This document shows positions 12,357 through 28,623 of a stretch of DNA of 64,000 bases, piece after piece (the first letter of the stretch is position 1; each line of letters begins with the position of its first letter). The stretch is taken from the NCBI RefSeq assembly GCF_030687535.1, contig NZ_CP117437.1, positions 3,741,501 to 3,805,500 of the forward strand. Reading direction: 5' to 3'. A model generated the notes under the pieces. The model was not told where the DNA came from. It did no database searches and was given only the letters and a program-made list of their open reading frames with translations. The DNA is from Pseudomonas sp. FP2335. Its GTDB lineage: Bacteria; Pseudomonadota; Gammaproteobacteria; Pseudomonadales; Pseudomonadaceae. A program made the position numbers and the translations under genes.

Positions 12357-13555
12357 CAGCGTTGCACAGCCTTGGGCGCGGCGAGGCTGTTGTCATGGAT
12401 CAACTGGGTGATCATGGCATCGGCCTCGGCGAGCTGGCGGTCATACACGTTGGTGCTGAACGAGGCTTTTTGCGGCGCCTGTTGCGCCAGCACCGGGCCG
12501 CTCTGGTCGTGCAGGTCAACGCTGACCTGGGTCGACAAGCCCACCCGCAGCGGGTGCTTGGCCAGCTCGGTGGCGTTTATGTGGATGCGCACCGGTACCC
12601 GCTGCACGATCTTGATCCAGTTACCCGTGGCGTTCTGCGCCGGCAGCAAGGCAAATGCACTGCCGGTGCCCGCGCCGAGGCTATCGATGGTGCCGCTGAA
12701 TTTCACGTCACTGCCATAGATGTCCGACTCGATGTCCACCGGCTGGCCGATGCGCATATCGCGCAGCTGGGTCTCCTTGAAGTTGGCGTCGATCCACAGT
12801 TGGTTCAGCGGGATCACCGCCATCAACGCGGTGCCTGGTTGCACGCGCTGGCCCAGTTGCACGGTGCGCTTGGCGACGTAGCCGGTGACCGGCGCGATCA
12901 GGGTGCTGCGCGCATCGGTCAGGTAGGCCTGGCGCAGTTGCGCGGCGGCGGCTTGCACGTCCGGGTGGGAGCTGATCACGGTGTCATCCACCAGCGCGTT
13001 GGTGGTTTTCAGTTGTTGCTCCAGGTTGGTCAGGGCGTTCTTCGCGGCGGTCAGGCTGTCGCGGGCGTGGGACAGTTCTTCCTGGGAAATCGCGCCACCC
13101 TGGGCCAGGGTTTTACGCCGGTTGAAGTTGTCCTGGGCGGTTTGCACGTCGGCTTTCTGCGCGTTGACCTGGGCCTTCATGCCGTCGACGTTGCTGTACA
13201 GGCCGCGCACCTGGCGCACGGTGCGGGCCAGGTTGGCCTGGGCACTTTGCAGGCCGACGGCGGCGTCGTTCGGGTCGAAGTTGACCAGCACCTGGCCTTC
13301 GTGGACCAGGTCGCCATCGTCGGCGCCGATGCTGACCACGGTGCCCGTGACCAGCGGGGTGATTTCCACCACGTTGCCGTTCACATAGGCGTCGTCGGTG
13401 CTTTCGCTGAAGCGCCCGTAAAGTTCGTGCCAGGCCCACACGCCGACGACGCTGAGGATGACGATCAGCGCCAGGCCGATCAGCATCACTTTGCGTTTGC
13501 GTGGGTTGTTGTCTTTCGGTTGTTCGGTTGCGTTGGTGTTTTCGGCAGTGGCCAT
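12356..13555 (-). CDS. emrA: EmrA/HlyD-family membrane fusion protein
   Basis: A 399-residue periplasmic adaptor: one TM helix at about 23-44 (KVMLIGLALIVILSVVGVW), then a lipoyl half GTVVSIGADDGDLVHEGQVLVNF, a coiled-coil hairpin at about 100-200 and a beta-barrel part with TLIAPVTGYVAKRTVQLGQRVQPG. It bridges the MFS pump and the outer-membrane factor. It is the third gene of the marR-led operon, 15 nt after the outer-membrane lipoprotein gene and one base overlapping emrB. The long hairpin fits EmrA-type adaptors. Confidence 0.9.
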   Translation of the reverse strand: MATAENTNATEQPKDNNPRKRKVMLIGLALIVILSVVGVWAWHELYGRFSESTDDAYVNGNVVEITPLVTGTVVSIGADDGDLVHEGQVLVNFDPNDAAVGLQSAQANLARTVRQVRGLYSNVDGMKAQVNAQKADVQTAQDNFNRRKTLAQGGAISQEELSHARDSLTAAKNALTNLEQQLKTTNALVDDTVISSHPDVQAAAAQLRQAYLTDARSTLIAPVTGYVAKRTVQLGQRVQPGTALMAVIPLNQLWIDANFKETQLRDMRIGQPVDIESDIYGSDVKFSGTIDSLGAGTGSAFALLPAQNATGNWIKIVQRVPVRIHINATELAKHPLRVGLSTQVSVDLHDQSGPVLAQQAPQKASFSTNVYDRQLAEADAMITQLIHDNSLAAPKAVQR

Positions 13556-13570
13556 GACAAGTACCTCAAA

Positions 13571-15022
13571 TTATTCCGTGCGTGTGGCTGGGGTGGTCGC
13601 TGCCACGTTGTCGGCGCTGTAGCCGCCGCCCAGGGCCTGCATCAGTTGAATCGACAGATCGATCTGCGCGGCATTCAGGGTTGCCAGCTGACGCTGGGCC
13701 TGCAGCAGTTGCTGCTCGATGCTCAGCACATCCAGGTAGTTACCGATCCCGGAGCTGTAGCGCTGCACCCCGGTGTCGTAGGACTGCTGGGCAATGTCCG
13801 CGGCATGTTGCTGGGCCTGGATCTGCCGGCCGGTGTCGCGCAGTTGCGAAAGGGTGTTGCCGATATCGCCCAGGGCTTGCACCAGGGTTTTGTTGTACTG
13901 CGCCACCGCCAGGTCGTAGTCGGCGTCGCGGGCATCAAGGTCGGCGCGCAGGCGGCCGCCGTCGAAGATCGGCAGCGAGATCGTCGGTGCAATGTTGAAG
14001 AAGCGGCTGGCCGACCCGAACATCGCATCGCCCAGCAACGACTCGGCCCCAGCGCTCGCGCTCAGGTTGAGGTTGGGATAGAAGCGCGTCTTGCTGGCAT
14101 CGATGTTCCTGCCTGCCGATTCGACCCGCCAGCGTGCGGCGATCAGGTCCGGGCGCCGCCCCAGCAGCTCGGCCGGCAGCACCGAGGGCACGGCGACCGC
14201 GCTGGGTTTCAGCACAGTGGGCCGGGCCAATTCATTGCCACGGTCCGGGCCTTTGCCGAGCAACACGGCCAGGGCGATCTTGGCGCTTTTCAGCTGTTTT
14301 TCCGCGTCGATCAATTGCGACTGCGAGCTGGCTTCCAGGCTTTCGGTCTGCTGGTACTGGTATTGGCTGTCGATGCCCGAGTTCAGCCGGCGCTTGCCCA
14401 GGTCGAGCATCTGCCGGGTGCGCTTGAGGTCGTCATTGGCCAGGTCGCGCACGATATGGGCCTGGCCCAGGTCGCTGTAAGCCTTGGCCACGTTGGCGGC
14501 CAGGGTCAGGCGCGCGGCCTGCTGGTCGACCTGGGCGGCACGCGCCTCGCCCAACGCGGCTTCCCAGGCCGCACGCTGGCCGCCCCAGAGGTCGAAGGTG
14601 TAGTTGAAGCTGGCGCCAATATTGCGCACGGTCGAGTAGGCATCGCCCTGCCCGCGTGGGTCCTGGTCCTTGGCCAGGCGCGAGCGGGTCACACCGGCGC
14701 TGGCATCCAGGGTTGGCATACGCGCCGCGTCGGCGGCGTAGGCGGCGGCTTCGGCCTGATGGGCACGGGCGCTGGCCACTTGCATGTCCGGGCTGTTTTG
14801 CAGGGCTTCCTGGATCAGGCCGTCGAGTTGCGGGTCGCCGAGGCTTTTCCACCAATCGGCGCTGGGCCAGGCGGCACTCGACAGGGTCACGTCGCTCAAG
14901 GTCTTACCCGTTTGCAAAGTGCCGGCGTCGAGGCGTTTGCCTTGGGTGTCGAGGCCGCTGTAGTTGGCGCAACCGGCCATGCTCATGGCCACCAGCACCA
15001 GGCTGAGTGCACGTGTGTTCAT
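13571..15022 (-). CDS. NodT/OprM-family outer-membrane efflux lipoprotein
   Basis: A 483-residue TolC-like channel with a lipoprotein signal (MNTRALSLVLVAMSMAGC), giving a lipidated N-terminus. Two outer-membrane efflux repeats are visible, with typical segments SPDMQVASARAHQAEAAAY, ADYDLAVAQYNKTLVQALGDIGNTL and YSSGIGNYLDVLSIEQQLL. It completes the tripartite pump. The start overlaps the MarR regulator stop as ATGA, so channel, adaptor and pump are expressed as one message under the regulator's promoter. Confidence 0.9.
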   Translation of the reverse strand: MNTRALSLVLVAMSMAGCANYSGLDTQGKRLDAGTLQTGKTLSDVTLSSAAWPSADWWKSLGDPQLDGLIQEALQNSPDMQVASARAHQAEAAAYAADAARMPTLDASAGVTRSRLAKDQDPRGQGDAYSTVRNIGASFNYTFDLWGGQRAAWEAALGEARAAQVDQQAARLTLAANVAKAYSDLGQAHIVRDLANDDLKRTRQMLDLGKRRLNSGIDSQYQYQQTESLEASSQSQLIDAEKQLKSAKIALAVLLGKGPDRGNELARPTVLKPSAVAVPSVLPAELLGRRPDLIAARWRVESAGRNIDASKTRFYPNLNLSASAGAESLLGDAMFGSASRFFNIAPTISLPIFDGGRLRADLDARDADYDLAVAQYNKTLVQALGDIGNTLSQLRDTGRQIQAQQHAADIAQQSYDTGVQRYSSGIGNYLDVLSIEQQLLQAQRQLATLNAAQIDLSIQLMQALGGGYSADNVAATTPATRTE

Positions 15023-15506: not shown

Positions 15507-15528
15507 TTACTGCCTAGGCAGTGAATGT
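15507..15528. promoter_or_regulatory. MarR operator, proximal copy
   Basis: Contains the perfect 14-bp palindrome ACTGCCTAGGCAGT, flanked by TT on one side and GAATGT on the other. It starts 15 bp before the marR start codon, covering the presumed start of transcription. Confidence 0.8.
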
Positions 15529-15539
15529 ATGACAAGATG

Positions 15540-15561
15540 TTACTGCCTAGGCAGCGAATGT
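15540..15561. promoter_or_regulatory. MarR operator, distal copy
   Basis: A second copy of the operator with core CTGCCTAGGCAG, differing from the proximal copy at one base and with the same flanks. The start-to-start distance of 33 bp (about three helical turns) puts both on the same face of DNA. Confidence 0.8.
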
Positions 15562-15612
15562 CAAAAGAAATTATTAGCTTGCTTGGTAATTGGCGGATGA
15601 ATGGTGGGTTTC

Positions 15613-15655
15613 TAAGGATTACCTGATGGGTTGCGACGCCTTCGCTCAGTAATCT
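15613..15655 (+). promoter_or_regulatory. RcsB-box-like promoter of the adhesin gene
   Basis: TAAGGATTACCTGA at 15613-15626 is followed after 23 bp by TAATCT at 15650-15655, a fair -10 hexamer. The -35 position directly after the box (TGGGTT) is poor, which fits an activator-dependent promoter. The same arrangement recurs before the first kinase gene and the pilin gene. Confidence 0.6.
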
Positions 15656-15690
15656 GCGTAGTCCCTTGGCCAGTCGATAGCGACCTTTCC

Positions 15691-16641
15691 ATGACCTCTT
15701 TGAAACAGCTTGCCTGCCTCGCGGCAATCAGCCTGGCGGGTGCGCAAGCGGCCTTTGCGGCTAATTGCACCGTCACCACCAACACCAACGAAACCCTTAA
15801 TTTCGGCGCGAGCCTGGCCAATGGCAGCCTGACGGTTCCCGCTGACACACCCGACGGCACTGTGATTTACCAGGACACCGTGCAATCGGTTCGAAACGAA
15901 TGGAAATGCACGGGCGCTTCGCAATACGGCCTGGTGATGAACCCTGCACTGGGCTCGGTCACCAGCGGCTCGACCTACCCTATCGGCAAGACCGGGCTTT
16001 CATTCCGGATCTGGATCGACGCACTGAGCCGCTATGAGAAAAGGCCTTTCACGCTCAAGCCAGACAATTACGGCATCTCCCCAGGCTCGGTACGCCTGGA
16101 AATCGTCAAGTCAGGCCCGCTGTCTCCACAGGTCAAGGTCGCTGCCGGCAACCTGGGCAACTTGCAAGCTGACGATCTGATCATCAGCAAGTACAACCTC
16201 ACCAACCCCCTGGTGCTGAACGCCGCCTCCTGCCAGACCCCTTCCGTCCCCGTCGCCATGGGCGACGACTATCAGCTCTGGGAGTTTCGCGACGCAGGCG
16301 CAACCCCTCGCACCATTCGCTTCAACATCGGCTTGAACCAGTGCCAGACCGGTATCAATAAAGTCACCTATTCGCTCAAGGCCACCACCTCCGTCATCGA
16401 CGCGGCAAAAGGTGTCGTCGCGCTCAATGGCGGCTCCACGGCCAAAGGCATCGGCCTGCAATTGATGGATGATGCTGGGCAACCCATCGCGTTTGATACG
16501 ACCTACACCTTCAGCGGTTTCACCACCACGGGCGCCAACTTCAAGATCCCCTTGTCGGCCTCGTATTACCGCTTGCCCACCGGCAACGTCGAGGCTGGCA
16601 GCGCCAACACCGAAGTCACCTTTATCGTGAACTACCTGTAG
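15691..16641 (+). CDS. chaperone-usher fimbrial tip adhesin
   Basis: A 316-residue secreted protein. I chose ATG 15691 because it opens a standard signal peptide, MTSLKQLACLAAISLAGAQAAFA; the open frame reaches back to 15631. The length suggests a two-domain adhesin: an N-terminal binding domain (about 24-190, with Cys pairs) and a C-terminal pilin domain (from about ASCQTPSVP) ending EVTFIVNYL, the usual donor-strand C-terminus with aromatic and alternating hydrophobic residues. It is separated from its pilin, chaperone and usher by the four phosphorelay genes, but has the same promoter motif. The receptor is unknown. Confidence 0.75.
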   Translation: MTSLKQLACLAAISLAGAQAAFAANCTVTTNTNETLNFGASLANGSLTVPADTPDGTVIYQDTVQSVRNEWKCTGASQYGLVMNPALGSVTSGSTYPIGKTGLSFRIWIDALSRYEKRPFTLKPDNYGISPGSVRLEIVKSGPLSPQVKVAAGNLGNLQADDLIISKYNLTNPLVLNAASCQTPSVPVAMGDDYQLWEFRDAGATPRTIRFNIGLNQCQTGINKVTYSLKATTSVIDAAKGVVALNGGSTAKGIGLQLMDDAGQPIAFDTTYTFSGFTTTGANFKIPLSASYYRLPTGNVEAGSANTEVTFIVNYL

Positions 16642-16646
16642 CAAAC

Positions 16647-16689
16647 TAAGGATCGTCTGATTTTTCCTAAACCCGGCCACGCCTAGAGT
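16647..16689 (+). promoter_or_regulatory. RcsB-box-like promoter of the phosphorelay operon
   Basis: TAAGGATCGTCTGA at 16647-16660, then 23 bp, then TAGAGT at 16684-16689. The 14-mer is identical to the copy before the pilin gene. A start of transcription about 7 bp after the -10 would fall on the kinase ATG at 16696, raising the possibility of a leaderless message. The box matches the enterobacterial RcsAB consensus TAAGAATATTCTTA, as I remember it, at 10 of 14 positions. Confidence 0.6.
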
Positions 16690-16695
16690 GCCGGG

Positions 16696-19482
16696 ATGCG
16701 ATTAAAGAACTATCTCCACCAGATCAGCCCCGTCCTGTCCACACCCCATGCCGCACGCCGGCTGCTGCGGATTTTTGCGCTGGTGCTGCTGGTGGGCATG
16801 CTGGGCGGCGTGTACAGCTTCCTGCTGTTTACGTTCAACAACGAAATCTCCCAGCGGCGCAGCTACATGAGCAGCGCCATCGCCGAGGCCCATACCTTTT
16901 TCACCACCCGTGAAGCCCTGCTGGAAAGCCTCAGCCTGTCGGCCACACGCAAGGCCGAATTGAACCTGCCGGTGAACGATGAGGAAATCCGCCTGTTGCT
17001 CGGCAAAATCCCGGGTAAGCAATGGAGCATCTGGCTGACCCAGCGCATGCGCGACTTCCTGAAGGCCAAGCAGCTCAACCTGCTGTACGTCGGCACCGAT
17101 GCCCAGGTACTGCGGCTGTACGATGCGGGGCCCGCGGCCGCCGATTTTCCCGCGTCCATGCTGGCGCAACTCAATGCGCTCAAGCAGCAGAAAACCCTGC
17201 AGGAACTCTGGCTGACCCACACCGACGACGGCCACTCGCAGCTGTATATCTTTATCCGCCTGGATGAACGCGACCTGAACTCCGGTTGGCTCGGCCTGGA
17301 AATGGATGACCGCGAAGTCTCCAAGGCGTTGAGCGACCACAGTGCTGGCAAGTTCACCATGTTCAACGCCCAAGGTATGCCTCTATTCAGCAACAGCCGT
17401 AACCCGCCGCCCGGGCAATACCTGCCGCACCTGCGCCAGCAGGACTTCTTCGGTTTTGTCGGCGACGGCTGGCTGCCCGAGCAATTGGTGTTGCGCAAAC
17501 AGCTGAAGTCTTCGGACTGGCAGCTCACCTACTCCATCGACCTGCGTGCCGTCCTTTGGGCGCTATGGCCGCAGATGCTCGGCGCCCTGCTGTTCTGCCT
17601 GCTGACCATCAGCCTGGTGTGCCTGCTGACCCGGCGCCTGGAACACCGCTTCATCACCCCCGCCATCCACCGCATCCAGGCGCTGGTGGAAAGCGAGCTG
17701 TTCAGCCGCGATGTGATCCAGACCGCCCCGGTGGCCCTGTGCGTGCTGCGGCGCACGGACGGCGAAGTGGTGCTGGAAAACACCCTCGCCCAACAATGGC
17801 TCGGCCAAGCCGGCGTGCACCTGGGGCCGGGCTGGATTCGTGGTGCCTTCGACCCCGACGCCCCCAGCCTCACCGACTACTTCGAGGCTGCCGATGGTCG
17901 TCACCTGTACCTGAGCTGCGCACCTACCCGCTACAAGGGGGAAGACGTGTTGCTCTGCGCCTTCAGCGACATCAGCGCACGCACCCAGATCGAAGCGGCG
18001 CTGGAACAGGCACGCCAATCCGCCGATGCCGCCAACGAAGCCAAGACGCTGTTCCTGGCGACCATGAGCCACGAAATCCGCACGCCGCTGTATGGCGTGC
18101 TCGGCACCCTGGAACTGCTCGCCCGCACCCGCCTGGATGCCCAGCAGAAAAGCTACCTGCATGCCATCGAAGGTTCCTCGGCGACGCTGCTGCAACTGAT
18201 TTGCGATGTGCTCGACGTGTCAAAGATCGAAGCCGGCCAACTGGCCCTGGAGTTGAGCGAGTTTTGTGTGCCCAGCCTGGTGCAGGAAGTGGTGCAGGGT
18301 TACGCCGCCGCCGCACAGAGCAAGGGTTTGCAGCTGTATGCGTGCCTCGACCCGCAACTGCCGCTGCGCCTGATCGGCGATGCCAGCCGCTTGCGCCAGA
18401 TCCTCAACAACCTGCTGAGCAATGCGGTCAAGTTCACCGACTCCGGGCGCGTAGTACTGCGGGTCAAAAAGCTCAGCTGTGAAGGCGAACGGGCGTGCCT
18501 GCAATGGCAAGTCTCGGACACTGGCAAAGGCATCGCCCAGGAAGACCAGGCGCTGATCTTCGAGCCTTTCTACCAGACCGAAGGCAACCCCCATGTGATC
18601 GCCGGCACCGGTCTCGGCCTGCCCATTTGCCTGCGCCTGACCCACTTGATGAACGGCACCCTGCGCATGGTCAGCGAGCCGGGGCTGGGCAGCAGCTTTT
18701 CCCTGACCGTGCCGCTGGAGCAACCCGCTGGCCTCGCGCCGTCGCTGCTGCCGCTGTTGGCACAGGAGGTGGTGTATGTGCTCTCGCCTGTACGCGAACT
18801 GGCCGACAGCCTCTGCGGCTGGCTGCGCCGCTGGGGCGCCCGTGCGCAGGTTGGCCCGCCGTCCAGCGCCGAGCTGGCCGCACCCGCGGTACTGCTCGAA
18901 CTGGTAGAGCGCAGCCTGGACACCTCCTGGCACGGCCCACGGGTATTCGCCAGCAGCGATGGTGCCCACGAACCGCAGTTCACCGGCGATGGCTGGCAGG
19001 TCAACCTCAACGACCTGAACGCAATCCACCAGGCGGTTCGACACGCCCAGAACGGCCAGGCCGCACCGTCCCAGGCGCGTTGCGAGCGGCGCGACCTGCA
19101 CCCCTTGCACCTGCATATCCTGGTGGCCGAAGACAACGTCATCAACCAGTTGATCCTGCGCGACCAGCTTGAAGAGCTCGGTTGCACCGTAGAGCTGGCC
19201 GGCGATGGCGAAGAGGCCTTGTCCCGCTGGCACGAAGGCGCCTTCGACATCGTCCTCACTGACGTCAACATGCCCAAGCTCAATGGCTACGAACTGGCCG
19301 AAGCCCTGCGGCGCCTTGGCTGCAACACCCCGATCATCGGCGCAACCGCCAACGCCCTGCGCGGTGAAGATGCCTTGTGCCTGGCGGCCGGCATGAATCA
19401 CTGCCTGGTCAAACCCTTCACACTGCGAGCCTTGTTCACTGCCCTGGCTCCCTACGCACGAGCTACCCATGAAACCCTGTAG
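16696..19482 (+). CDS. hybrid sensor histidine kinase without HPt (PvrS/RocS-like)
   Basis: A 928-residue membrane kinase. TM1 is at about 26-48, a periplasmic sensor fills about 50-280 and TM2 is at about 283-310. Then come a linker, HisKA ([16 protein letters not shown], His459), HATPase ([19 protein letters not shown]) and a receiver ([18 protein letters not shown], Asp856). The protein ends right after the receiver, so there is no HPt domain; its phosphate would need an HPt elsewhere, most simply His999 of the second kinase. There is no clear Shine-Dalgarno sequence before the ATG. It overlaps the next gene by 14 nt. The layout resembles PvrS of the P. aeruginosa cupD locus; the signal sensed is unknown. 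Confidence 0.85.
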
Positions 19483-20656
19483 CATTTTGATCGTTGAAGA
19501 CCATCCCTTTCAGCACCTGTATCTGCAGAACCTGTTCAGCGAGTTGGGTGATTTCGACCTGGTGTGCGCCAGGGACGGCGAAGAGGCGCTGGCGTGTCTG
19601 AAACAACGTGACTTCGACCTGGTGCTTACCGACCTACTGATGCCGGGCATGGACGGCGTGCAATTTATCCAGGGCCTGGCCGCACAACCGTCGCGCCCGG
19701 CCCTGGCGATCATGAGTGCCGCCTCACGGCGCATGCTGATGGGCGCGAGCCTGGTGGCGAGCAACCTGCAAGTAAAGGTGATCGGGCTGATCTCCAAGCC
19801 GGTGAATGCTGCCGCCTTGCGCTGCCTGACCGATCAATTGCTGGCGCTGCGTCAGGTCGTACCGGCAGAGGCGCAGCCCGGCATTGATTGCCAAAGCCTG
19901 ACGAATGCCCTGGTCAACGGCGAACTGCAAGCCTGGTTCCAACCCAAGAAAGCCCTGAGCAATGGTCGCATCGTTGCGGCTGAAGCGTTAGTGCGCTGGG
20001 TTCACCCCGAGCATGGCCTGTTACTGCCGGGTGTGTTCCTGCCGGCCTTGATTGCCTGCCACCTGGAAGAACGCCTGTTGTGGTGCGTGCTCAAACAAGC
20101 GATGGCCGCCCAAGCCGTATGGCGCCAACAAGGCTATGACATCCCGGTGTCCATCAACCTGCCCACGCACCTGCTCAACAGCCACGACCTGCCCGACCGC
20201 ATTCTGGCGTTCGTGCTGGAACACCAGGGGTTGCCGGCACGTATCTGTTTCGAGCTGATGGAATGCTCGGTGCCCGACGATATCAGTAATTTCTACGCCG
20301 GCGCCTGCCGCTTGCGCATCAAGGGGTTCGGCCTGTCCCAGGACGATTTCGGCAAGGGCTACAGCTCGTACATGAACCTGGTTTCGGCGCCGTTCACCGA
20401 GGTAAAGATCGACCGCGCCCTGGTACAGGGCTGCAACACCAACGAAGAACTGGCCCAGGCACTCACCAGCATCGTCAGCCTCGGGCGTCAATTGGGCTTG
20501 ATTGTGGTCGCCGAAGGTGTAGAAACCGCGCAAGAACTTGCGCTGTTGCGTAAGATCGACTGCACTCAGGTCCAGGGTTTCCTGATCTCCCACGCCGTCT
20601 CTGCGGATCAGTTCCAGCAATTGCTGACCCACGACGGGCCGGCGAGCGCCTATTGA
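19469..20656 (+). CDS. receiver-EAL response regulator, c-di-GMP phosphodiesterase (PvrR/RocR-like)
   Basis: A 395-residue protein: receiver domain at about 1-125 with acidic pocket ED (10-11), Asp55 in LTDLLMPGMDG and SKP Lys near 109; EAL domain at about 140-390. Catalytic signatures look intact: AAEALVRW, SINLPTHLL, ELMECS, SQDDFGKGYSS, VKIDRAL, EGVETAQE and TQVQGFL. It should hydrolyse c-di-GMP and, as with RocR and PvrR, lower fimbria expression or biofilm when phosphorylated. It overlaps the first kinase by 14 nt. It probably competes with the RcsB-like regulator for the single HPt of the locus (inference from the related P. aeruginosa systems). Confidence 0.87.
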   Translation: MKPCSILIVEDHPFQHLYLQNLFSELGDFDLVCARDGEEALACLKQRDFDLVLTDLLMPGMDGVQFIQGLAAQPSRPALAIMSAASRRMLMGASLVASNLQVKVIGLISKPVNAAALRCLTDQLLALRQVVPAEAQPGIDCQSLTNALVNGELQAWFQPKKALSNGRIVAAEALVRWVHPEHGLLLPGVFLPALIACHLEERLLWCVLKQAMAAQAVWRQQGYDIPVSINLPTHLLNSHDLPDRILAFVLEHQGLPARICFELMECSVPDDISNFYAGACRLRIKGFGLSQDDFGKGYSSYMNLVSAPFTEVKIDRALVQGCNTNEELAQALTSIVSLGRQLGLIVVAEGVETAQELALLRKIDCTQVQGFLISHAVSADQFQQLLTHDGPASAY

Positions 20657-20706
20657 CCGGCTGCCGGGTGTGGAACAACACCGTTAGCTTGCGAGGTCAC
20701 CGCGTC

Positions 20707-23700
20707 ATGCATCCCCCCAATGCCTTCCTGGAGAAACTCACCAGCAGTTCACTGCGCCTGAACAAAGGCTTGCAGGTATTGGGAGCCTTGGTGCTGTTGC
20801 TGCTGGGTATCAGCTACCTGGGGGTGCAACGCATGGTCCAGGAGCAGCATGAAACCCTGCAATTCCATTTCGCCCGGCTGATGGAGAATATCCACGAGCA
20901 GGAAGCCTTCCTGCACGAAGTCTCGCGGGGCAGTATCCAGGGCGAACTCAACCCTTCGGCCCTGCTCCCACCCGTTGCGCAAAAGCCGCTGCCCGAAGAA
21001 GGACCGAATATCTATGAGGGTCGCGGGCTGCCGTTTTCCCTGCCCTACAGCCTGAAAATCAACCCGGACAAGATCGCCGCCGCCGAGTACCCCAAGGTGT
21101 TCGCCCTCGGCACCTACTTGTCGGCTTACTACAGCGCATTCTGGGCCGCCTCTCACTATCAGTCGCCCCAGGTAATGGTGGTCAACAGCCCGGACAACTT
21201 CGACATCAGCGTGCCCGCCACCGGCCGGCTGCGCGATGGCGGCCAGGTGCCCGTCGGTGCGCTGCTGGACGTGCTGACCCAGTTGAGCGAACGCCTGCAC
21301 GCACAGAATTCGTCGCGGACGGATCATCAAGTGCACTGGGAACCCTACGCCCCCACACCCGATCACAACGGTGCGCCCGTGCTGCTGGGCTATGTCGACA
21401 TCAACCTGGCCTCGACCGCGCTGACCATCGACGGCGCCAACACCTGGGTGGTGGTGGCCTCTCTGCTGGACCTGGCCAAGGTCAATCACATCGAGCGCTT
21501 GATGCAGTGGTCGATCTACGACAACTTCACCTTGATCACCCCAGCCGGCATGACACTGACTGGCGCGGTGAAGCCCGGCCAAGTGCTGAACGAGGGCGTG
21601 AATGTCACCCGCGACGGCCTGGTGTTCAAGCTGACCAGCCAGGACGGCCAGCCCTGGACGGCGATCTACGTGATCAGCCTGCAACGCTTCCTCGACTACG
21701 CGCTGTGGCCACTACTGTGCCTGCTGGCCGTGGCGCTGGCGATGCTGGGCTGCAGCCGCGCCTTCAACCGTTGGTACACGGCACGGGTGGTGTTGCCTGC
21801 CCATCAGGCCCACGCCAGCATCGCCGAAAGCGAGGCGTTCAGCCGCGCGGTCATCGACACCGCGCCGACCGGCCTGTGCGTGATCCGCCGCAGCGATCAT
21901 CATGTCCTCCTGCAAAACCAGCGGGCCCAGCAATGGCGGGACGCCCGCGCCTTGTTCGAGTTGCTCAAACAGCAGCCGCACACCGTGCCGGGCCAGGCCG
22001 ACCTTGAAAGTGACGGCCACCACCTGCACGTGGCCTTCGTGCCCACCCGTTACCAGGGCCAGGACGCGTGGTTGTGTGCAGTGCACGACGTCACCCGGCA
22101 CATCGAAGATGCCGCCGCCCTGGAGGACGCCCGCCAGGCGGCCGATTCGGCGAACCAGGCCAAGAGCCGCTTCCTCGCGACCATGAGCCATGAAATCCGC
22201 ACACCGCTGTATGGCGTGCTGGGCACCCTGGAGCTGCTCGGCCTGACCTCGCTCGCGCCACGTCAGCAGGATTACCTGCAGACCATCCAGCGTTCGTCCA
22301 CCACCCTGTTCCAGTTGATCAGCGACGTGCTGGATGTGTCGAAGATCGAAGCCGGGCAAATGACCCTCGAACTCCAGGATTTCTGCCCGCTGGAATTGAC
22401 GCAAGACTGTGTGCGCACCTACAGCGCGTTCGCCCGCTCCAAGGGCTTGCAGCTGTATGCCTGCATCGACGCGAACCTGCCGGACAGGGTGTGCGGTGAC
22501 CCGCTGCGGATCCGCCAGATCCTCAATAACCTGCTGAGCAATGCGATCAAGTTCACCGACAACGGGCGCGTGGTCCTGCGCCTGCGCGGCCTGGAAACCA
22601 GCGATGGGCGGATCGACCTGGACTGGCAAGTCAGCGACTCCGGCGTGGGCATTTCCCAAGCACAGCAGCAACAACTGTTCGACCCGTTCTACCAGGCCGA
22701 AGATGCCACCAGCCAGGCCGGTGCCGGCCTGGGCCTGGCGATCTGCAAATGGCTGTGCGAGCTCATGCACGGGCAACTGAAGGTGGTCAGCGAACCCGGC
22801 CTGGGCAGCAGCTTTACCCTGCAAGTTGCACTAAAGCCCGTGCCAGGCACGTTGGCCGACTGTCCGGCCTTCAGCCCCGGTACGCCGGCTGTCTACGTGC
22901 GCGCACTGGAACCGGAGCGGGCGCAACACATGATCGATTGGCTCAAACGCCTGGGTCTCGACAGCCGCGCGCTGGCAACCGACCTGCCCGCCTGCGCCGT
23001 GTTGGTGGACTTCACCGACAATCCGGCATGGCCCGGCACACGCATTATCGCCAGCGCCGGAGGGCCGAACCCGGCGCAACGCTGCGGCGGTGATTGGGCG
23101 GTCGACGCCGACGATGTACGCGCCATTGCCTGGGCGATCTACCTGGCGCAATACGGCGCCGACGCCGGCCAGCGCCCCGCGCCATCCGCCCAGGCACGCC
23201 CGCTGAACCTGCACGTGCTGGTGGCCGAAGACAACGTGATCAACGCGGCCATCATCCAGGAACAACTGGAAGCCCTGGGCTGCTCGGTGGTACTCACCGC
23301 CAACGGCGAACAGGCACTGACCCAATGGGTGTCCGGACGCTTCGACCTGGTGCTGACCGACGTGAATATGCCAGTGATGAACGGTTACCAGTTGGCCGAG
23401 GCATTGCGCCGGCGCGACGCCACACTGCCGATTATCGGGGTGACCGCCAATGCCATGCGCGAAGAAGGCGAACACTGCACAGCCGTCGGCATGAATGGGT
23501 GGATGGTCAAGCCGCTGAACCTCGCCAACCTGCGTGCGCAATTGCAACAACACTGCAAGATCGAAGTGCCCGCCGTCGTCGAGATGCCGGCGCTGTCGCC
23601 CAAGATGCGCGAACTGTTTGTCACCACGCTGCGTCAGGACGTGCACACCACCCTGGCCGCACTGGACAACCAAGACGCCAATGGCGCTGCACAACAACTG

Positions 23701-23865
23701 CACAGCATGGCCGGTGCCCTCGGCGCCGTGCAGCTCGGTGATATGGCCAATGCCTTTGTCGAGCTGGAACTTCGCCTGGCCGGCATGGCCGTCACGCCCG
23801 CCCTGGCCTTGGAGGTGAGGCGCAAACTGACGAGCCTCACGGCATTGCTCGACACCTTTGAATAA
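20707..23865 (+). CDS. hybrid sensor histidine kinase with HPt (RcsC/RocS-like)
   Basis: A protein of about 1052 residues. I chose ATG 20707 (MHPPNAFLEKL) with GAGGT upstream; the frame also allows a TTG at 20653. TM1 is at about 20-40, a large periplasmic domain runs to about 340, TM2 is around 345-365. HisKA has [16 protein letters not shown] (His495), HATPase has NNLLSNAIKFT and GAGLGLAI, the receiver has LTDVNMP (Asp885) and the HPt domain has QLHSMAGALGA (His999). It is a full unorthodox kinase and carries the only HPt in the locus, so it is the likely phosphate hub for both response regulators. Its kinase core is clearly paralogous to the first kinase; the sensor domains differ. Confidence 0.87.
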   Translation: MHPPNAFLEKLTSSSLRLNKGLQVLGALVLLLLGISYLGVQRMVQEQHETLQFHFARLMENIHEQEAFLHEVSRGSIQGELNPSALLPPVAQKPLPEEGPNIYEGRGLPFSLPYSLKINPDKIAAAEYPKVFALGTYLSAYYSAFWAASHYQSPQVMVVNSPDNFDISVPATGRLRDGGQVPVGALLDVLTQLSERLHAQNSSRTDHQVHWEPYAPTPDHNGAPVLLGYVDINLASTALTIDGANTWVVVASLLDLAKVNHIERLMQWSIYDNFTLITPAGMTLTGAVKPGQVLNEGVNVTRDGLVFKLTSQDGQPWTAIYVISLQRFLDYALWPLLCLLAVALAMLGCSRAFNRWYTARVVLPAHQAHASIAESEAFSRAVIDTAPTGLCVIRRSDHHVLLQNQRAQQWRDARALFELLKQQPHTVPGQADLESDGHHLHVAFVPTRYQGQDAWLCAVHDVTRHIEDAAALEDARQAADSANQAKSRFLATMSHEIRTPLYGVLGTLELLGLTSLAPRQQDYLQTIQRSSTTLFQLISDVLDVSKIEAGQMTLELQDFCPLELTQDCVRTYSAFARSKGLQLYACIDANLPDRVCGDPLRIRQILNNLLSNAIKFTDNGRVVLRLRGLETSDGRIDLDWQVSDSGVGISQAQQQQLFDPFYQAEDATSQAGAGLGLAICKWLCELMHGQLKVVSEPGLGSSFTLQVALKPVPGTLADCPAFSPGTPAVYVRALEPERAQHMIDWLKRLGLDSRALATDLPACAVLVDFTDNPAWPGTRIIASAGGPNPAQRCGGDWAVDADDVRAIAWAIYLAQYGADAGQRPAPSAQARPLNLHVLVAEDNVINAAIIQEQLEALGCSVVLTANGEQALTQWVSGRFDLVLTDVNMPVMNGYQLAEALRRRDATLPIIGVTANAMREEGEHCTAVGMNGWMVKPLNLANLRAQLQQHCKIEVPAVVEMPALSPKMRELFVTTLRQDVHTTLAALDNQDANGAAQQLHSMAGALGAVQLGDMANAFVELELRLAGMAVTPALALEVRRKLTSLTALLDTFE

Positions 23866-23887
23866 CCTCACTCTGGATAATCACCCC

Positions 23888-24535
23888 ATGGAAACCCTCA
23901 ACGTAGTCATTGCAGACGATCACCCCATCGTGCTGGTCGGGGTACGGGAACTGGTCGAGCGCGATGAGCGTTTTCGCGTGGTGGGCGAAGCCGTGTGCTC
24001 CAACGAATTGGTGACGCTGCTGGAAAACACCGCCGTTGACCTGGTGATCACCGACTTCAACATGCCGGCGGACTCGCCCTACGGCGATGGCCTGAAACTG
24101 GTGGAGTACCTGGTGCGGCGCTTTCCCAAGGTGCGCGTGCTGGTGCTGACGATGATCTCCAACCCGCTGATCCTGACGCGCTTGCAGGAATTGGGCGTAC
24201 TGGCCGTGATCCAGAAGAACCAGCTGCACAATGAGATCCAGGCGGCGCTCAAGGCCATCGCCCGGGGCAATCCGATCCGCAGCAGCGGGCCGCTACCGAC
24301 GTCGGTGATGGAGTCCGGCGCCGATTTGAATGAGCGGTTTACCCGGTTGTCGCCCAAGGAACACGAGATCCTGCGTTTGTTCGTGGCCGGACAAAGTGTC
24401 AATGAAATCGCCCGGGGCTTGAACCGAAGTGCCAAGACCATCAGCACGCAAAAAGTGGCGGCGATGCGCAAGTTGGAAGTTACCAGCGACCAGGACTTAT
24501 TGGCTTATTGCATAGAACGCAACTTGTTCAACTAG
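23888..24535 (+). CDS. RcsB-like LuxR-family response regulator
   Basis: A 215-residue regulator starting METLNVVIADDHPIVLVG. Phospho-acceptor Asp56 lies in LVITDFNMP, the same position as in E. coli RcsB, and the NPLILTRL region also matches RcsB-type receivers. The HTH part, LSPKEHEILRLFVAG...EIARGLNRSAKTISTQK, is close to the RcsB recognition helix (LNRSIKTISSQK from memory). This supports binding to the RcsB-box-like motifs found upstream of the adhesin, the kinase and the pilin genes. It ends 25 bp before the pilin promoter box. Likely activator of the fimbria genes and of its own operon. Confidence 0.87.
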   Translation: METLNVVIADDHPIVLVGVRELVERDERFRVVGEAVCSNELVTLLENTAVDLVITDFNMPADSPYGDGLKLVEYLVRRFPKVRVLVLTMISNPLILTRLQELGVLAVIQKNQLHNEIQAALKAIARGNPIRSSGPLPTSVMESGADLNERFTRLSPKEHEILRLFVAGQSVNEIARGLNRSAKTISTQKVAAMRKLEVTSDQDLLAYCIERNLFN

Positions 24536-24559
24536 CCCTTATTCAAACAATCGGATTTC

Positions 24560-24602
24560 TAAGGATCGTCTGATGTCTAACTAATGGCCAGGGCTTTATT
24601 GT
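24560..24602 (+). promoter_or_regulatory. RcsB-box-like promoter of the pilin operon
   Basis: TAAGGATCGTCTGA at 24560-24573, 23 bp, then TATTGT at 24597-24602. The 16 bases CTAAGGATCGTCTGAT are identical to the copy before the first kinase gene, and the TTTC preceding the box is shared with the adhesin copy. The -35 position (TGTCTA) is weak. Confidence 0.6.
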
Positions 24603-24632
24603 GTTGTTTCAACTCCCAGCATGGAAAACAAC

Positions 24633-25223
24633 ATGAAACAGCTCTCTCGGACACTTCTGGCCCTGTCGATCTTTGCCGCCGGCAATGCGTTCGCCGTCGA
24701 CCCGCCTGCCACACCGACCAAGGCTGGTAGCGGCACCATCAACTTCACCGGCTCCATCAACAACGATGCTTGCTCGGTGGAAGGCATTGGTTTGAACAAA
24801 ACCATTTCGGTGAACATGGGTGAAGTGTCGATCAAGGACATGGGCACCGCCACCGCACCGCAAGGCACCGGCACCCTGAGCGCAGAGAACTTCGACATGA
24901 AGATCAGCTGCAACGCCGGCACCAAAGTGGCAATGCTGTTCGAACCGACCAAAGGCGCGGGCTCGGGCATCGTTGCCGGAACCAAGGTGTTGAAACTGAT
25001 CGACGGCCTGGGCGCCGCCAAGAACGTCGGTATCGCCCTGCTCGATGCCAACGGTGCCTTGATCGACTTGAGCACCCCGGCCACTGCAAAGATCGAGAAC
25101 ACCCTGCAAGACAGCAATACCACGCTGAAATTCTCGGCCGCCTACGTTACCACCGCCGATGCCAAAACGGCCGTGGCTGGTCGCGGCGACGCCACCCTGC
25201 CGTTCACGCTGCAATACGAATAA
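24633..25223 (+). CDS. major fimbrial subunit (chaperone-usher pilin)
   Basis: A pilin of 196 residues from ATG 24633 (MKQLSRTLLALSIFAAGNAFA signal peptide); an in-frame ATG at 24621 would add four residues. The mature protein has the pilin pattern: GTINFTGSINNDACSVE with first Cys, DMKISCNAGTKV with the second, and the C-terminal donor-strand signature ATLPFTLQYE with penultimate Tyr. It would be secreted by Sec, folded by the PapD-type chaperone and polymerised through the usher. A strong hairpin follows the gene, which fits higher pilin than usher levels. Confidence 0.87.
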   Translation: MKQLSRTLLALSIFAAGNAFAVDPPATPTKAGSGTINFTGSINNDACSVEGIGLNKTISVNMGEVSIKDMGTATAPQGTGTLSAENFDMKISCNAGTKVAMLFEPTKGAGSGIVAGTKVLKLIDGLGAAKNVGIALLDANGALIDLSTPATAKIENTLQDSNTTLKFSAAYVTTADAKTAVAGRGDATLPFTLQYE

Positions 25224-25295: not shown

Positions 25296-26039
25296 ATGTT
25301 TTATCGTCACACTCTATCCCTCTGCGTGGGCCTGTTGGGCCTGCTTGCGGCTAACTCGGCCACGGCCGGCATTTCATTGAGCAGCACCCGCCTGATCTTC
25401 GACGGCACGCATAAAGAAGCCGGTATTACCGTGCGTAACAACGGCGAAACCGTGTTGATCCAGTCATGGGTCGACACTGACAACGCTCCATCCGCACCGT
25501 TTGCCGTGACCCCGCCCCTGGCACGAATCAATGGTGAAGAGCAGCAACTGCTGCGGGTGATCTACGAAGGCCAGGGCATGCCAACCGACCGCGAGTCGAT
25601 GGTGTGGCTCAATGTGCAGGAGATCCCCCAGGCTTCGAAACTGCAGAACACCCTGCAACTGGCCGTACGCCAGCGCATCAAGCTGTTCTTCCGCCCTGCG
25701 GGCATGAAGAACGAGGCCTACCTGGCACCGACCGAGCTGATGTGGAGCCTGGCCGAGCGTGCCGGCAAGCCGGTGCTGGTGGTGACCAACCCGGGCCTGT
25801 ATCACGTGTCAATTGCCGAAATCACCCTGCATGCCGGCGGCGTCAAAGAACATCCTTTTGATTCGATGATGATCGCGCCCGGCGAACAAAAAGAGTTCCC
25901 CCTCAAACAACTAAGCCGGGACAGTTCGCCAACATTGTTGTTCAGCAGCATTAATGACTATGGCGCACAAGACCGATACACCGCACGCCTTTCAAACAGC
26001 GCCGACAGCCGCGCCACGTTGAATAAAGAATCGCCATAA
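25296..26039 (+). CDS. PapD-type periplasmic fimbrial chaperone
   Basis: A 247-residue chaperone with signal peptide (MFYRHTLSLCVGLLGLLAANSATA). The mature part has GISLSSTRLIFDG, containing the conserved Arg that anchors the subunit C-terminus, and VRQRIKLFFRP, containing the conserved Lys. WLNVQEIP and ITVRNN are further family hallmarks. It folds and caps the pilin and adhesin by donor-strand complementation in the periplasm. Lies between the pilin and usher genes. Confidence 0.9.
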   Translation: MFYRHTLSLCVGLLGLLAANSATAGISLSSTRLIFDGTHKEAGITVRNNGETVLIQSWVDTDNAPSAPFAVTPPLARINGEEQQLLRVIYEGQGMPTDRESMVWLNVQEIPQASKLQNTLQLAVRQRIKLFFRPAGMKNEAYLAPTELMWSLAERAGKPVLVVTNPGLYHVSIAEITLHAGGVKEHPFDSMMIAPGEQKEFPLKQLSRDSSPTLLFSSINDYGAQDRYTARLSNSADSRATLNKESP

Positions 26040-26124: not shown

Positions 26125-28623
26125 ATGTTTTTAATCAAGCGCAACGGATGGTCGCCGCTGCTGGTTGCCCTGGGTTTCAGCACGGCATGCCAAGCCGACG
26201 GTGAGGAACAGTTCAATACCTCCTTTCTGCAAGGCGCGGCCTCCTCGGTCGATCTGCAATCGTTGCTGGCCAGTAGCAACGTACTACCCGGTAACTACCG
26301 GGTGGACTTGTATGGCAACGAAACCCTGGTGGGCCGTCGCGATATCGACTTCCGACGCAACCCCGGCAACGGCAGGATCGAGGCCTGCCTGACCCTGGAT
26401 ATGGTGCAACAACTGGGTGTCGATATCGCCAAGCTACAGGCCAGCGGCAAGCTCGAAGGCAGCGACCCTGACGCCTGCCTCGACCTGCCCACGTTGATCC
26501 CCGGTGCCAGCATGCGCTACGACGTGCCGCGCCTGCGCCTGCTGGTGAGTGTGCCGCAGATCGCCATGGAGCGTGGCCGCCGTGGTTACGTGGACCCGGC
26601 GCTGTGGGATGCCGGCGTGTCGGCGGCATTCATCAACTACCAGTTGAGCAGCAACCGCAACAGCACCGAGGCGCAAAATACCCTGTCCAACAACCTCGGC
26701 CTGCGCAACGGGATCAACCTGGGCGGCTGGCGGTTGCGCAACGAATCCAACTTCAACAGCAGCACCGACCGCCCGAGCACGTTCAAGAGCAACCGCACCT
26801 ACGTGCAACACGACGTGACCGCGCTGAAGGGCCAGTTCAGCGCCGGGGATATTTTCTCCGACGCCGACCTGTTCGACAGCGTGCGCTATCGCGGGGTCAA
26901 GCTGGGCTCCGACGATGGCATGCGCGCCGACAGCGAGCGCGGCTATGCGCCGATCATCCGCGGTATCGCGCAAACCAGCGCCACTGTGGAGATCCGCCAG
27001 AACAACTACATCCTCTACACCGCCAACGTGCCGCCGGGCCCGTTCGAGATCAGCGACATCTACCCCAGCGGCTCCAACGGCGACCTTGAAATCACCGTGA
27101 TCGAAGCCGATGGCAGCCGCCGGGTCACGGTGCAGGCGTTTTCCAGCCTGCCGATCATGGTGCGCGAAGGCCAACTCAAATACAGCCTGTCGGCGGGCCA
27201 ATACAACAGCAACAGCGACGGGCAACAGTCGCCACAGTTTGTCAGCAGCACCCTGGCCTACGGCATCAGCAGCAACTTGTCCGGCATCGTCGGCGTGCAG
27301 GCCAGCCAGGACTTCCAGGCGATGTCCGTGGGTGTCGGGCGCAACACGCCGATCGGCGCCGTGTCGCTGGACATGACCCACTCCGCCAGCCGCACCTTCG
27401 GCCAGGCCGTCACGGGTAACAGCCTGCGCGCCTTGTATGCCAAGACGTTTACCGGCACCGACACCAGCTTCACCCTCGCCGCCTACCGCTACTCCACCGA
27501 GGGCTATCGCACCCTCACCGAACACGTCGAGGAACTGAGCAGCGACGGCCAACGGCGCACCGGCAACTCAAAAACCCGCACTGACCTGACCGTCAACCAG
27601 AGCCTGGGCCGCAACCAGCAATATGGCAGCCTCTACGTGAACGCCAGCGACCAGCGCTACTGGAGCCGTGGCGGCTCGCAAAGCCTGTCGGCGGGCTACA
27701 GCAACTATTGGGGTGAGGTGAGCTACAACGTTGCCGCCACCTACACCAAGGATGTGGGCAACGCCGGGCCGTCGAACAATGACACCCTGGTCAACCTGTC
27801 ATTGTCCTTCCCGCTCGGCTCGACACCCCGCGCGCCGAGGGCCTTTGTCTCCGCCAGCACACAGAAAGACAACGACACCGCGCAAGTCGGTATCAACGGC
27901 TACCTCACGGAAAACAGCGACACCTATTACTCGCTGCAAGGCGGCAACAGCAGCACCGGTGGCAGCACCGGCTCGGCCAACCTCAGCACCCGTACCTCGG
28001 TGATGGATGTCAGCGCCAGTTACAGCCAGGGCCGTGGCTACAACTCGCAGAGCCTCAACCTGGCCGGCTCGGTAGTAGGCCACGGCGGCGGGATCAACCT
28101 GGGGCAAACCGTGGGCGAGACCTTTGCGCTGGCGCAAGTCGAAGGCGTGAGCGGAGTGAAGATCGGCAGTTTTTCCGGGGCCAAGACCGGCAGCAATGGC
28201 TACGCGGTAGTGCCCAATGCGCAGCCCTATCGGGTCAACTGGATCAGCCTTGACACCCGTGACCTGGGCGCCGATATCGAGATCGACAACGCCACCCAAC
28301 AAGTGGTGCCGCGTCGCGGTGCCGTGGTGTTGGCGCGCTATGTCAGCAAGACCGGGCGCCGCGTGCAGTTCGCGCTGTTCGATGCCAAGCAACAGCCGAT
28401 CCCGTTTGGTGCTTCGCTGGAAGACACGGCGGGCAAGCAGATGGCGATTTCCGATCCCAACGGCAAGGCGCTGGCCTTGGTTGAGCAGGATACGGGCACG
28501 TTGGTGATCAAGTGGGGGGAGCAGCAGTGCCAGGCGAACTATGCGTTAGGGGAACGCAACAAGGCGCTCAATTATGAGCGGGTGGACTTGAAGTGCACCC
28601 CACAATTTCAGGAACACCAATAA
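26125..28623 (+). CDS. fimbrial outer-membrane usher (FimD/PapC family)
   Basis: An 832-residue usher: signal peptide, N-terminal chaperone-binding domain (FNTSFLQG, LPGNYRVDLYGN), a 24-strand barrel region with the plug-associated segment APIIRGIAQTSATVEIRQNNYILYTANVPPGPFEISD, and C-terminal domains (GAVVLARYVSKTGRRVQFALFD) ending with a Cys pair. It selects chaperone-subunit complexes and secretes the fimbria. The ATG is preceded by AGGG; a stronger GGAGG is 15-20 nt upstream. No further subunit follows, so this locus has only one pilin and the distant adhesin. Confidence 0.92.
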   Translation: MFLIKRNGWSPLLVALGFSTACQADGEEQFNTSFLQGAASSVDLQSLLASSNVLPGNYRVDLYGNETLVGRRDIDFRRNPGNGRIEACLTLDMVQQLGVDIAKLQASGKLEGSDPDACLDLPTLIPGASMRYDVPRLRLLVSVPQIAMERGRRGYVDPALWDAGVSAAFINYQLSSNRNSTEAQNTLSNNLGLRNGINLGGWRLRNESNFNSSTDRPSTFKSNRTYVQHDVTALKGQFSAGDIFSDADLFDSVRYRGVKLGSDDGMRADSERGYAPIIRGIAQTSATVEIRQNNYILYTANVPPGPFEISDIYPSGSNGDLEITVIEADGSRRVTVQAFSSLPIMVREGQLKYSLSAGQYNSNSDGQQSPQFVSSTLAYGISSNLSGIVGVQASQDFQAMSVGVGRNTPIGAVSLDMTHSASRTFGQAVTGNSLRALYAKTFTGTDTSFTLAAYRYSTEGYRTLTEHVEELSSDGQRRTGNSKTRTDLTVNQSLGRNQQYGSLYVNASDQRYWSRGGSQSLSAGYSNYWGEVSYNVAATYTKDVGNAGPSNNDTLVNLSLSFPLGSTPRAPRAFVSASTQKDNDTAQVGINGYLTENSDTYYSLQGGNSSTGGSTGSANLSTRTSVMDVSASYSQGRGYNSQSLNLAGSVVGHGGGINLGQTVGETFALAQVEGVSGVKIGSFSGAKTGSNGYAVVPNAQPYRVNWISLDTRDLGADIEIDNATQQVVPRRGAVVLARYVSKTGRRVQFALFDAKQQPIPFGASLEDTAGKQMAISDPNGKALALVEQDTGTLVIKWGEQQCQANYALGERNKALNYERVDLKCTPQFQEHQ

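Follow-up and report, generated by a model that had tools for sequence, protein, structure and literature searches.

A predicted RcsB-type box at a fixed distance from the -10 hexamer in three promoters of a Pseudomonas fimbrial locus

Results

The 64,000-nucleotide stretch of Pseudomonas sp. FP2335 analysed here (contig NZ_CP117437.1, positions 3,741,501 to 3,805,500; called the window, with position 1 as its first letter) carries a fimbrial locus with its own phosphorelay. The subject of this study is a 14-bp box, resembling the sites of the response regulator RcsB, which precedes three genes of this locus. A Pfam scan of nine proteins gave the gene order MarR regulator, adhesin, hybrid kinase, REC-EAL protein, kinase with Hpt, RcsB-like regulator, pilin, chaperone and usher. 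The leftmost gene, for the MarR regulator, lies on the minus strand. The fimbrial adhesin gene (15691-16641; Fimbrial, 1.1e-14) is followed by the gene of a PvrS-like hybrid histidine kinase (16696-19482), in which HisKA, HATPase and REC were matched and a match to Hpt was absent in the Pfam scan. The 5' end of the next gene, for a PvrR-like REC-EAL response regulator (19469-20656), shares 14 nt with the 3' end of the kinase gene. An RcsC-like unorthodox histidine kinase (20707-23865; HisKA, HATPase, REC and Hpt) and an RcsB-like response regulator (23888-24535; REC with Asp56, and a LuxR-type HTH) come next. The pilin gene (24621-25223; Fimbrial, 5.8e-14), the periplasmic chaperone gene (25296-26039; PapD_N, 9.1e-38) and the outer-membrane usher gene (26125-28623; Usher, 4.3e-161) complete the locus. 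The ATG at 24621 was taken as the pilin start, and an in-frame ATG at 24633 is a possible true start. This gene set is that of the PvrSR/RcsCB-CupD system of P. aeruginosa PA14. By the regulator, the nearest named relatives are P. canadensis, P. reactans, P. simiae and P. extremorientalis (93-95%), in a list that may omit the window's own genome and its nearest kin.

The original prediction had placed a common box before the adhesin, first kinase and pilin genes, with a -10-like hexamer after exactly 23 bp and a poor -35 sequence behind each box. All of these positions were confirmed, on the plus strand throughout. In the adhesin promoter, the box TAAGGATTACCTGA (15613-15626) precedes TAATCT (15650-15655), and the predicted transcription start is about 15662. 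The box of the phosphorelay operon, TAAGGATCGTCTGA (16647-16660), starts 5 bp past the adhesin stop codon and is near-invariant in relatives; its hexamer is TAGAGT (16684-16689). The pilin operon carries the identical 14-mer TAAGGATCGTCTGA (24560-24573), also conserved in relatives, followed by TATTGT (24597-24602) and a predicted start at about 24609. The gap from box to hexamer is exactly 23 bases at all three promoters, and the three spacers appear unrelated on reading. A sigma-70-like -35/-10 pair was found at none of the three. If the hexamer is numbered -12 to -7, the box spans -49 to -36 with its centre at -42.5, directly upstream of the -35 place.

A genome-wide scan indicated that the pattern TAAGGATNNNCTGA is not frequent by chance, which had been a concern for the original prediction. 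Exactly three matches lie in the window and four in the 6.06 Mb genome, against none for the reversed control. The fourth (G000:C1:5130090) is inside a reading frame named carA-like by eye from its translation, and it has no -10 hexamer at 23 bp. When one mismatch was allowed, 29 genome matches, the four exact ones included, were obtained against 19 for the control, which is near background. The relaxed consensus derived from relatives, TARGRATYRYCTKAT, matched only the three window sites in the genome, and its control gave 0.

The arrangement was then compared among relatives, collected from 60 places matched by the regulator search and from 80 named loci (the best 80 of 113). Because the two sets overlap, identical promoters were counted once; tblastn matches beginning past query residue 25 or below 45% identity were excluded as well. 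The distinct promoters comprised 106 of the kinase, 71 of the pilin and 24 of the adhesin. The gap count took promoters with at most two box mismatches, which removed 22/106 for the kinase, 1/71 for the pilin and 4/24 for the adhesin; the adhesin promoter of the window, whose box has three mismatches to the relatives' consensus, is one of these four. TANNNT stood at gap 23 in 168 of the resulting 174 promoters, while no single gap exceeded 11 promoters in 1000 shuffles of the downstream stretches. Among distinct promoters with a box, it stood there in 28/30 for the adhesin and 63/65 for the pilin. The information content was 1.7-1.8 bits for the box columns and 0.36-0.60 bits for the spacer columns, computed only on promoters having TANNNT at 23 (81, 68 and 23). 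The nucleotide directly 3' of the box was T throughout this set, and therefore the consensus was extended to TAAGRATCGTCTKAT. This box of the relatives is an imperfect inverted repeat, TAAGR-N4-YCTKA, whose half-sites are palindromic like RcsB sites. In a distant clade whose regulator is about 60% identical, variants such as TGAGATCCGTCTTA stand in place of the box, and in most cases the -10 hexamer keeps its position. The sequences that served to refine the box patterns were also the ones counted; the co-occurrence with the regulator and the reading of other stretches, given below, are more independent tests. As a separate observation, one relative (L098:2959) has an extra box, TAAGGATTGTCTGA, about 100 bp upstream of its kinase box.

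Of 398 Pseudomonas genomes, 108 contained relatives of the regulator (E ≤ 1e-60). The strict pattern TARGRATCGTCTKAT was present in 78 of the 398, with 0 control matches in every row. It occurred in 72 of the 108 genomes with the regulator and in 6 of the 290 without (Fisher p = 2.8e-44). In two of these six (G227 and G358) a pilin or kinase promoter with the usual arrangement is present. Twenty extra stretches were read, selected among matches that lay elsewhere than at the usual kinase and pilin positions or that came from regulator-less genomes. In 12 of them the box precedes fimbrial genes or a relative of the kinase: adhesins in L242, L245, L246 and L252, chaperones in L243, L244, L247 and L260, pilins in L256 and L261, and kinases in L250, L258 and also L260. 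TANNNT stands at 23 in L245, L246, L250, L256, L258, L261 and the kinase box of L260, and is absent from the rest of the 12. The original prediction of a self-contained regulon stood for this genome at the stringency searched (TARGRATYRYCTKAT, three sites only); it did not stand for some relatives, which have boxes at fimbrial genes elsewhere. In a side observation, the regulator-less genome of stretch L258 (L258:1001) retains the kinase box, the -10 hexamer and an initial portion of the kinase gene; usher-like sequence stands in frame with this portion. The arrangement looks like what a deletion would leave of the locus.

The regulator encoded at the locus had been expected to carry an RcsB-like recognition helix and Asp56, and both are present. 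The best match of the regulator in the PDB is E. coli RcsB (E 1.2e-42). In the alignment, its Lys183 corresponds to Lys180 of RcsB and its Thr187 to Ser184, the latter being a conservative change. Lys180 and Ser184 are reported to make base contacts in the RcsB-DNA crystal (PMC5829831). At E ≤ 1e-40 the regulator is its own sole relative in the window's genome. In a plasmid collection the same threshold gave 8 records, all enterobacterial and below 60% identity, and none from Pseudomonas; pvrS and cupD1 of the PA14 island PAPI-1 did not turn up in the collections searched. The closest structural match, the aligned base-contact residues and the genus-wide co-occurrence support the proposal that the box is a putative RcsB-type operator read by the locus's own regulator.

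The kinase promoter looks leaderless, which adds to the original interpretation. The ATG of the kinase (16696) lies 6 nt behind TAGAGT, which places its A at +1. The distance was determined in 99 distinct kinase promoters with at most three box mismatches, the other 7 of the 106 being left out. It was 6 nt in 84, 7 nt in 12 and 5 nt in one (97/99), and in the remaining two TANNNT was absent at gap 23 or 24. From this distance of 5-7 nt a leaderless kinase mRNA is therefore predicted, and the A of the kinase ATG is the probable transcription start of the phosphorelay operon. The start codon was ATG in all 80 distinct sequences, which represent 99 loci; those below 60% in kinase identity were excluded, as were those whose match began after the first 3 residues. 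Leu3, Lys4, Tyr6 and Leu7 are largely conserved and the third codon positions vary, indicating codon-level constraint from the first codons. Four chaperone genes of other genomes (L243:1001, L244:1001, L247:1001 and, on the minus strand, L260 at 1001) also have their ATG 35 nt behind the box, as in the kinase, and carry CAGAAT or CATGAT in place of TANNNT at 23. Three of them are far from the locus, and the fourth lies some 1.9 kb upstream of the kinase box. A search of the interval from the adhesin stop to the kinase box gave no terminator-like site. Because of this and of the 5 bp between that stop and the box, read-through is likely, and leadered transcripts from the adhesin promoter probably exist too.

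Discussion

The overall result makes it very probable that the RcsB-type regulator of the locus binds the predicted box at -49 to -36 and activates three units, its own phosphorelay included. We infer this binding, the activation, the phosphorylation and the start sites from the sequence, its conservation, the spacing and the co-occurrence. A phosphorylated dimer of the regulator on the box would recruit RNA polymerase in lieu of a -35 element, in a class II-like activation. The adhesin would be switched on as one unit and the pilin-chaperone-usher genes as another. The remaining unit, the operon of kinase, REC-EAL protein, kinase with Hpt and regulator, would form a positive loop which also raises the phosphodiesterase of cyclic di-GMP (c-di-GMP). 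Its transcript would begin at the kinase ATG and be leaderless.

The PvrSR/RcsCB-CupD system of PA14 (PMC2696094, PMC3842833) likewise has two sensors, a REC-EAL protein and an RcsB-type regulator adjoining a chaperone-usher cluster. In PA14, an RcsB-box-like site was proposed for cupD1 by Nicastro et al. 2009 (as cited in PMC3842833). It lies near -75 of the reading frame, and a mutation of GAA to TTC abolished promoter function (PMC3842833). The box at 24560-24573 corresponds to it, as both stand ahead of the first pilin gene, and that of PA14 is needed for activity. It was also reported that RcsB activates the pilin and regulator genes, that its overproduction induces pvrS, pvrR, rcsC and rcsB, and that PvrS acts via RcsC (PMC3842833). 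By analogy, this induction and the box of the kinase operon support the predicted feedback on the phosphorelay genes. Because the cupD1 box and the RcsB induction are published, the core of our proposal, operator and feedback loop, is not new. The two systems differ in arrangement. In PA14 the regulator genes and the cupD genes have opposite orientations, and the adhesin (cupD4) and a second chaperone (cupD5) are inside the cluster, whereas in the window all these genes are on the plus strand and the adhesin is separate, upstream, with its own promoter and box. This is a difference of layout and not of defining function. The available text of PMC2696094 and PMC3842833, a promoter-alignment figure aside, does not mention boxes at the adhesin or kinase, a fixed spacing, genus-wide co-occurrence or a leaderless kinase. 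Neither the fixed spacing nor a leaderless pvrS-type gene was found to be described in the literature searched, with subscription journals largely outside its reach. Leaderless mRNAs as such are known in PA14, where 60 genes without a 5' untranslated region were reported (PMC3460626). In comparison with these, the mRNA described here is predicted, is tied to an activator box and is kept in 97/99 distinct promoters.

The resemblance to the enterobacterial RcsAB box, part of the original prediction, also held. Both are imperfect 14-bp palindromes located upstream of the -35 region, where RcsB homodimer sites are usually found (PMC5651002). The predicted regulon of the window consists of three sites of one locus, whereas the enterobacterial RcsB regulon serves global envelope stress. 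The E. coli gene rprA is described as strictly RcsB-dependent (PMC6298664). It has TGAGACGAATCTGA, which may be the footprinted rprA box, then 23 bp and TACTAT, and its annotated 5' end is 7 nt behind the -10 hexamer.

A second comparison concerns loci of paralogous regulators (39-42% identity), which we take to be of the Roc type (RocS/RocA/RocR). All four loci examined (L262:5792 and L265:9762 on the minus strand, L263:12011 and L264:6817) have a palindrome TARGAC..GTCYTAT exactly 23 bp before TANNNT; two of the loci supplied the consensus, which then matched the remaining two with no more than one mismatch. The regulator lies near a gene with a REC-EAL match, as in the window. In contrast to the window, the centre of the box is TARGAC..GTCYTA, the box stands ahead of the REC-EAL gene, and the distance to the likely start codon is about 49-67 nt or more, so that these promoters are not leaderless. 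The palindrome is likely the operator of the paralogous regulator. Since the same 23-bp geometry occurs in the Roc-type loci and in rprA, it seems to be older than the present locus.

The likeness of the Roc-type palindrome and its spacing shows that related regulators use similar sites, and hence the box could be bound by another regulator of the NarL/RcsB type, such as a Roc-type paralogue, rather than by that of the locus. However, the centre of the Roc-type palindrome differs, the window's genome has no second relative of the regulator at E ≤ 1e-40, and the presence of the box tracks this regulator across the 398 genomes. We consider this explanation quite improbable. Still less probable is that the conserved block belongs to a promoter for an alternative sigma factor, as its -35 part, and is not an operator of an activator. 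Such a promoter would agree with the box and the -10 hexamer forming one rigid unit and with the failure to find a sigma-70-like -35. But an inverted repeat of 14 bp ending 23 bp before the -10 hexamer is beyond the place of a usual -35 element, the hexamer retains the sigma-70 pattern TANNNT, and the precedents of PA14 and rprA are RcsB-dependent. It is hardly credible that the motif is a chance repeat or a functionless remnant of a promoter duplication. Two of the three 14-mers are indeed identical, yet the spacers of the three promoters look unrelated by eye, and box and -10 hexamer persist in distant relatives.

Activation through the box by the locus regulator does not itself settle where the kinase mRNA begins. 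The operon might not be leaderless, if its mRNA began further upstream, for instance by read-through from the adhesin promoter, with the -10 hexamer at 16684 minor or inactive. The closeness of the box to the adhesin stop, with no terminator-like site found between, favours this; the comparison of Shine-Dalgarno sequences was not decisive. On the other side, the spacing of 5-7 nt from -10 hexamer to ATG was also kept in loci where an upstream relative of the adhesin was not found, and the four chaperone genes elsewhere share the 35 nt from box to ATG, though without TANNNT at 23. We regard a start further upstream as unlikely, but as the most serious of these alternatives.

Several results weigh against our interpretation. 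The strict box is absent from 36 of the 108 genomes with the regulator, and variants are present in some of those that were checked. In at least three of the 72 genomes with both (G082, G092 and G346), the sole strict match lacks a -10 hexamer at 23 and does not precede fimbrial or relay genes; omitting these gave Fisher p = 1.3e-41. In 8 of the 20 extra stretches (L248, L249, L251, L253, L254, L255, L257 and L259), the box is not before fimbrial genes or this kinase, and TANNNT at 23 is found in none; in L254 it precedes a different receiver-domain gene. The sequence counts are not independent events, because the relatives share ancestry. The rprA site differs in its central bases and departs from the strict Pseudomonas consensus at 5 positions, and the looser pattern TRAGRNNNNTCTKAT, which fits it, was composed after the site was known. 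Two other E. coli regions tried, bdm-osmC and ftsQ-ftsA, gave no clear box with TANNNT at 23; the site before bdm has 3 mismatches, with CATGCT at the -10 place. Shine-Dalgarno strength was not decisive as a test of leaderlessness, as for none of the genes tested did more than 38% of the start sites pass the cut-off, and the tblastn-derived pilin starts may be wrong. Finally, base 13 of the box (G or T) and residue 187 of the regulator (T or A) appear associated in relatives, but this is equally explained by descent because there were only 3-4 independent changes; covariation of recognition helix and box was not separable from descent and was rejected as support.

The system is of a known kind, and its promoter rule is unusually strict. 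A circuit described on one pathogenicity island of P. aeruginosa is extended to a promoter rule that is conserved in much of the genus and that can locate fimbrial genes from DNA alone. It suggests a joint rise of fimbriae, adhesin, the controlling relay and a countering phosphodiesterase. The contact between an RcsB-type activator and polymerase can be tested simply through the leaderless mRNA predicted for the kinase and through the 23-bp geometry in common with rprA. We also put forward, as a speculation that we hold with considerable doubt, that a single rigid promoter (14-bp palindrome, 23 bp, TANNNT) serves RcsB-family activators throughout the gamma-proteobacteria. In Pseudomonas it would have been fused to the kinase ATG, and a leaderless autoinduced relay mRNA as opposed to a leadered read-through transcript would make a built-in translational difference.

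Additional observations

Among the stretches of other genomes, the palindrome TAAGAATCGTCTTA recurs in L249, L251, L253 and L259, and as TAAGAATCGTCTGA in L248. These five genomes have partly similar surroundings at this place, which is not before fimbrial genes. In the window, the minus-strand genes at 10827-15022 resemble an efflux operon, as judged by eye. Upstream of the minus-strand marR gene, the palindrome CTGCCTAGGCAG occurs twice, with starts at 15510 and 15543 (span 15510-15554). The second copy sits within the sole promoter-like site found upstream of marR (TTGACA at 15564 and TAACAT ending at 15537), and the pair is probably the operator of MarR.

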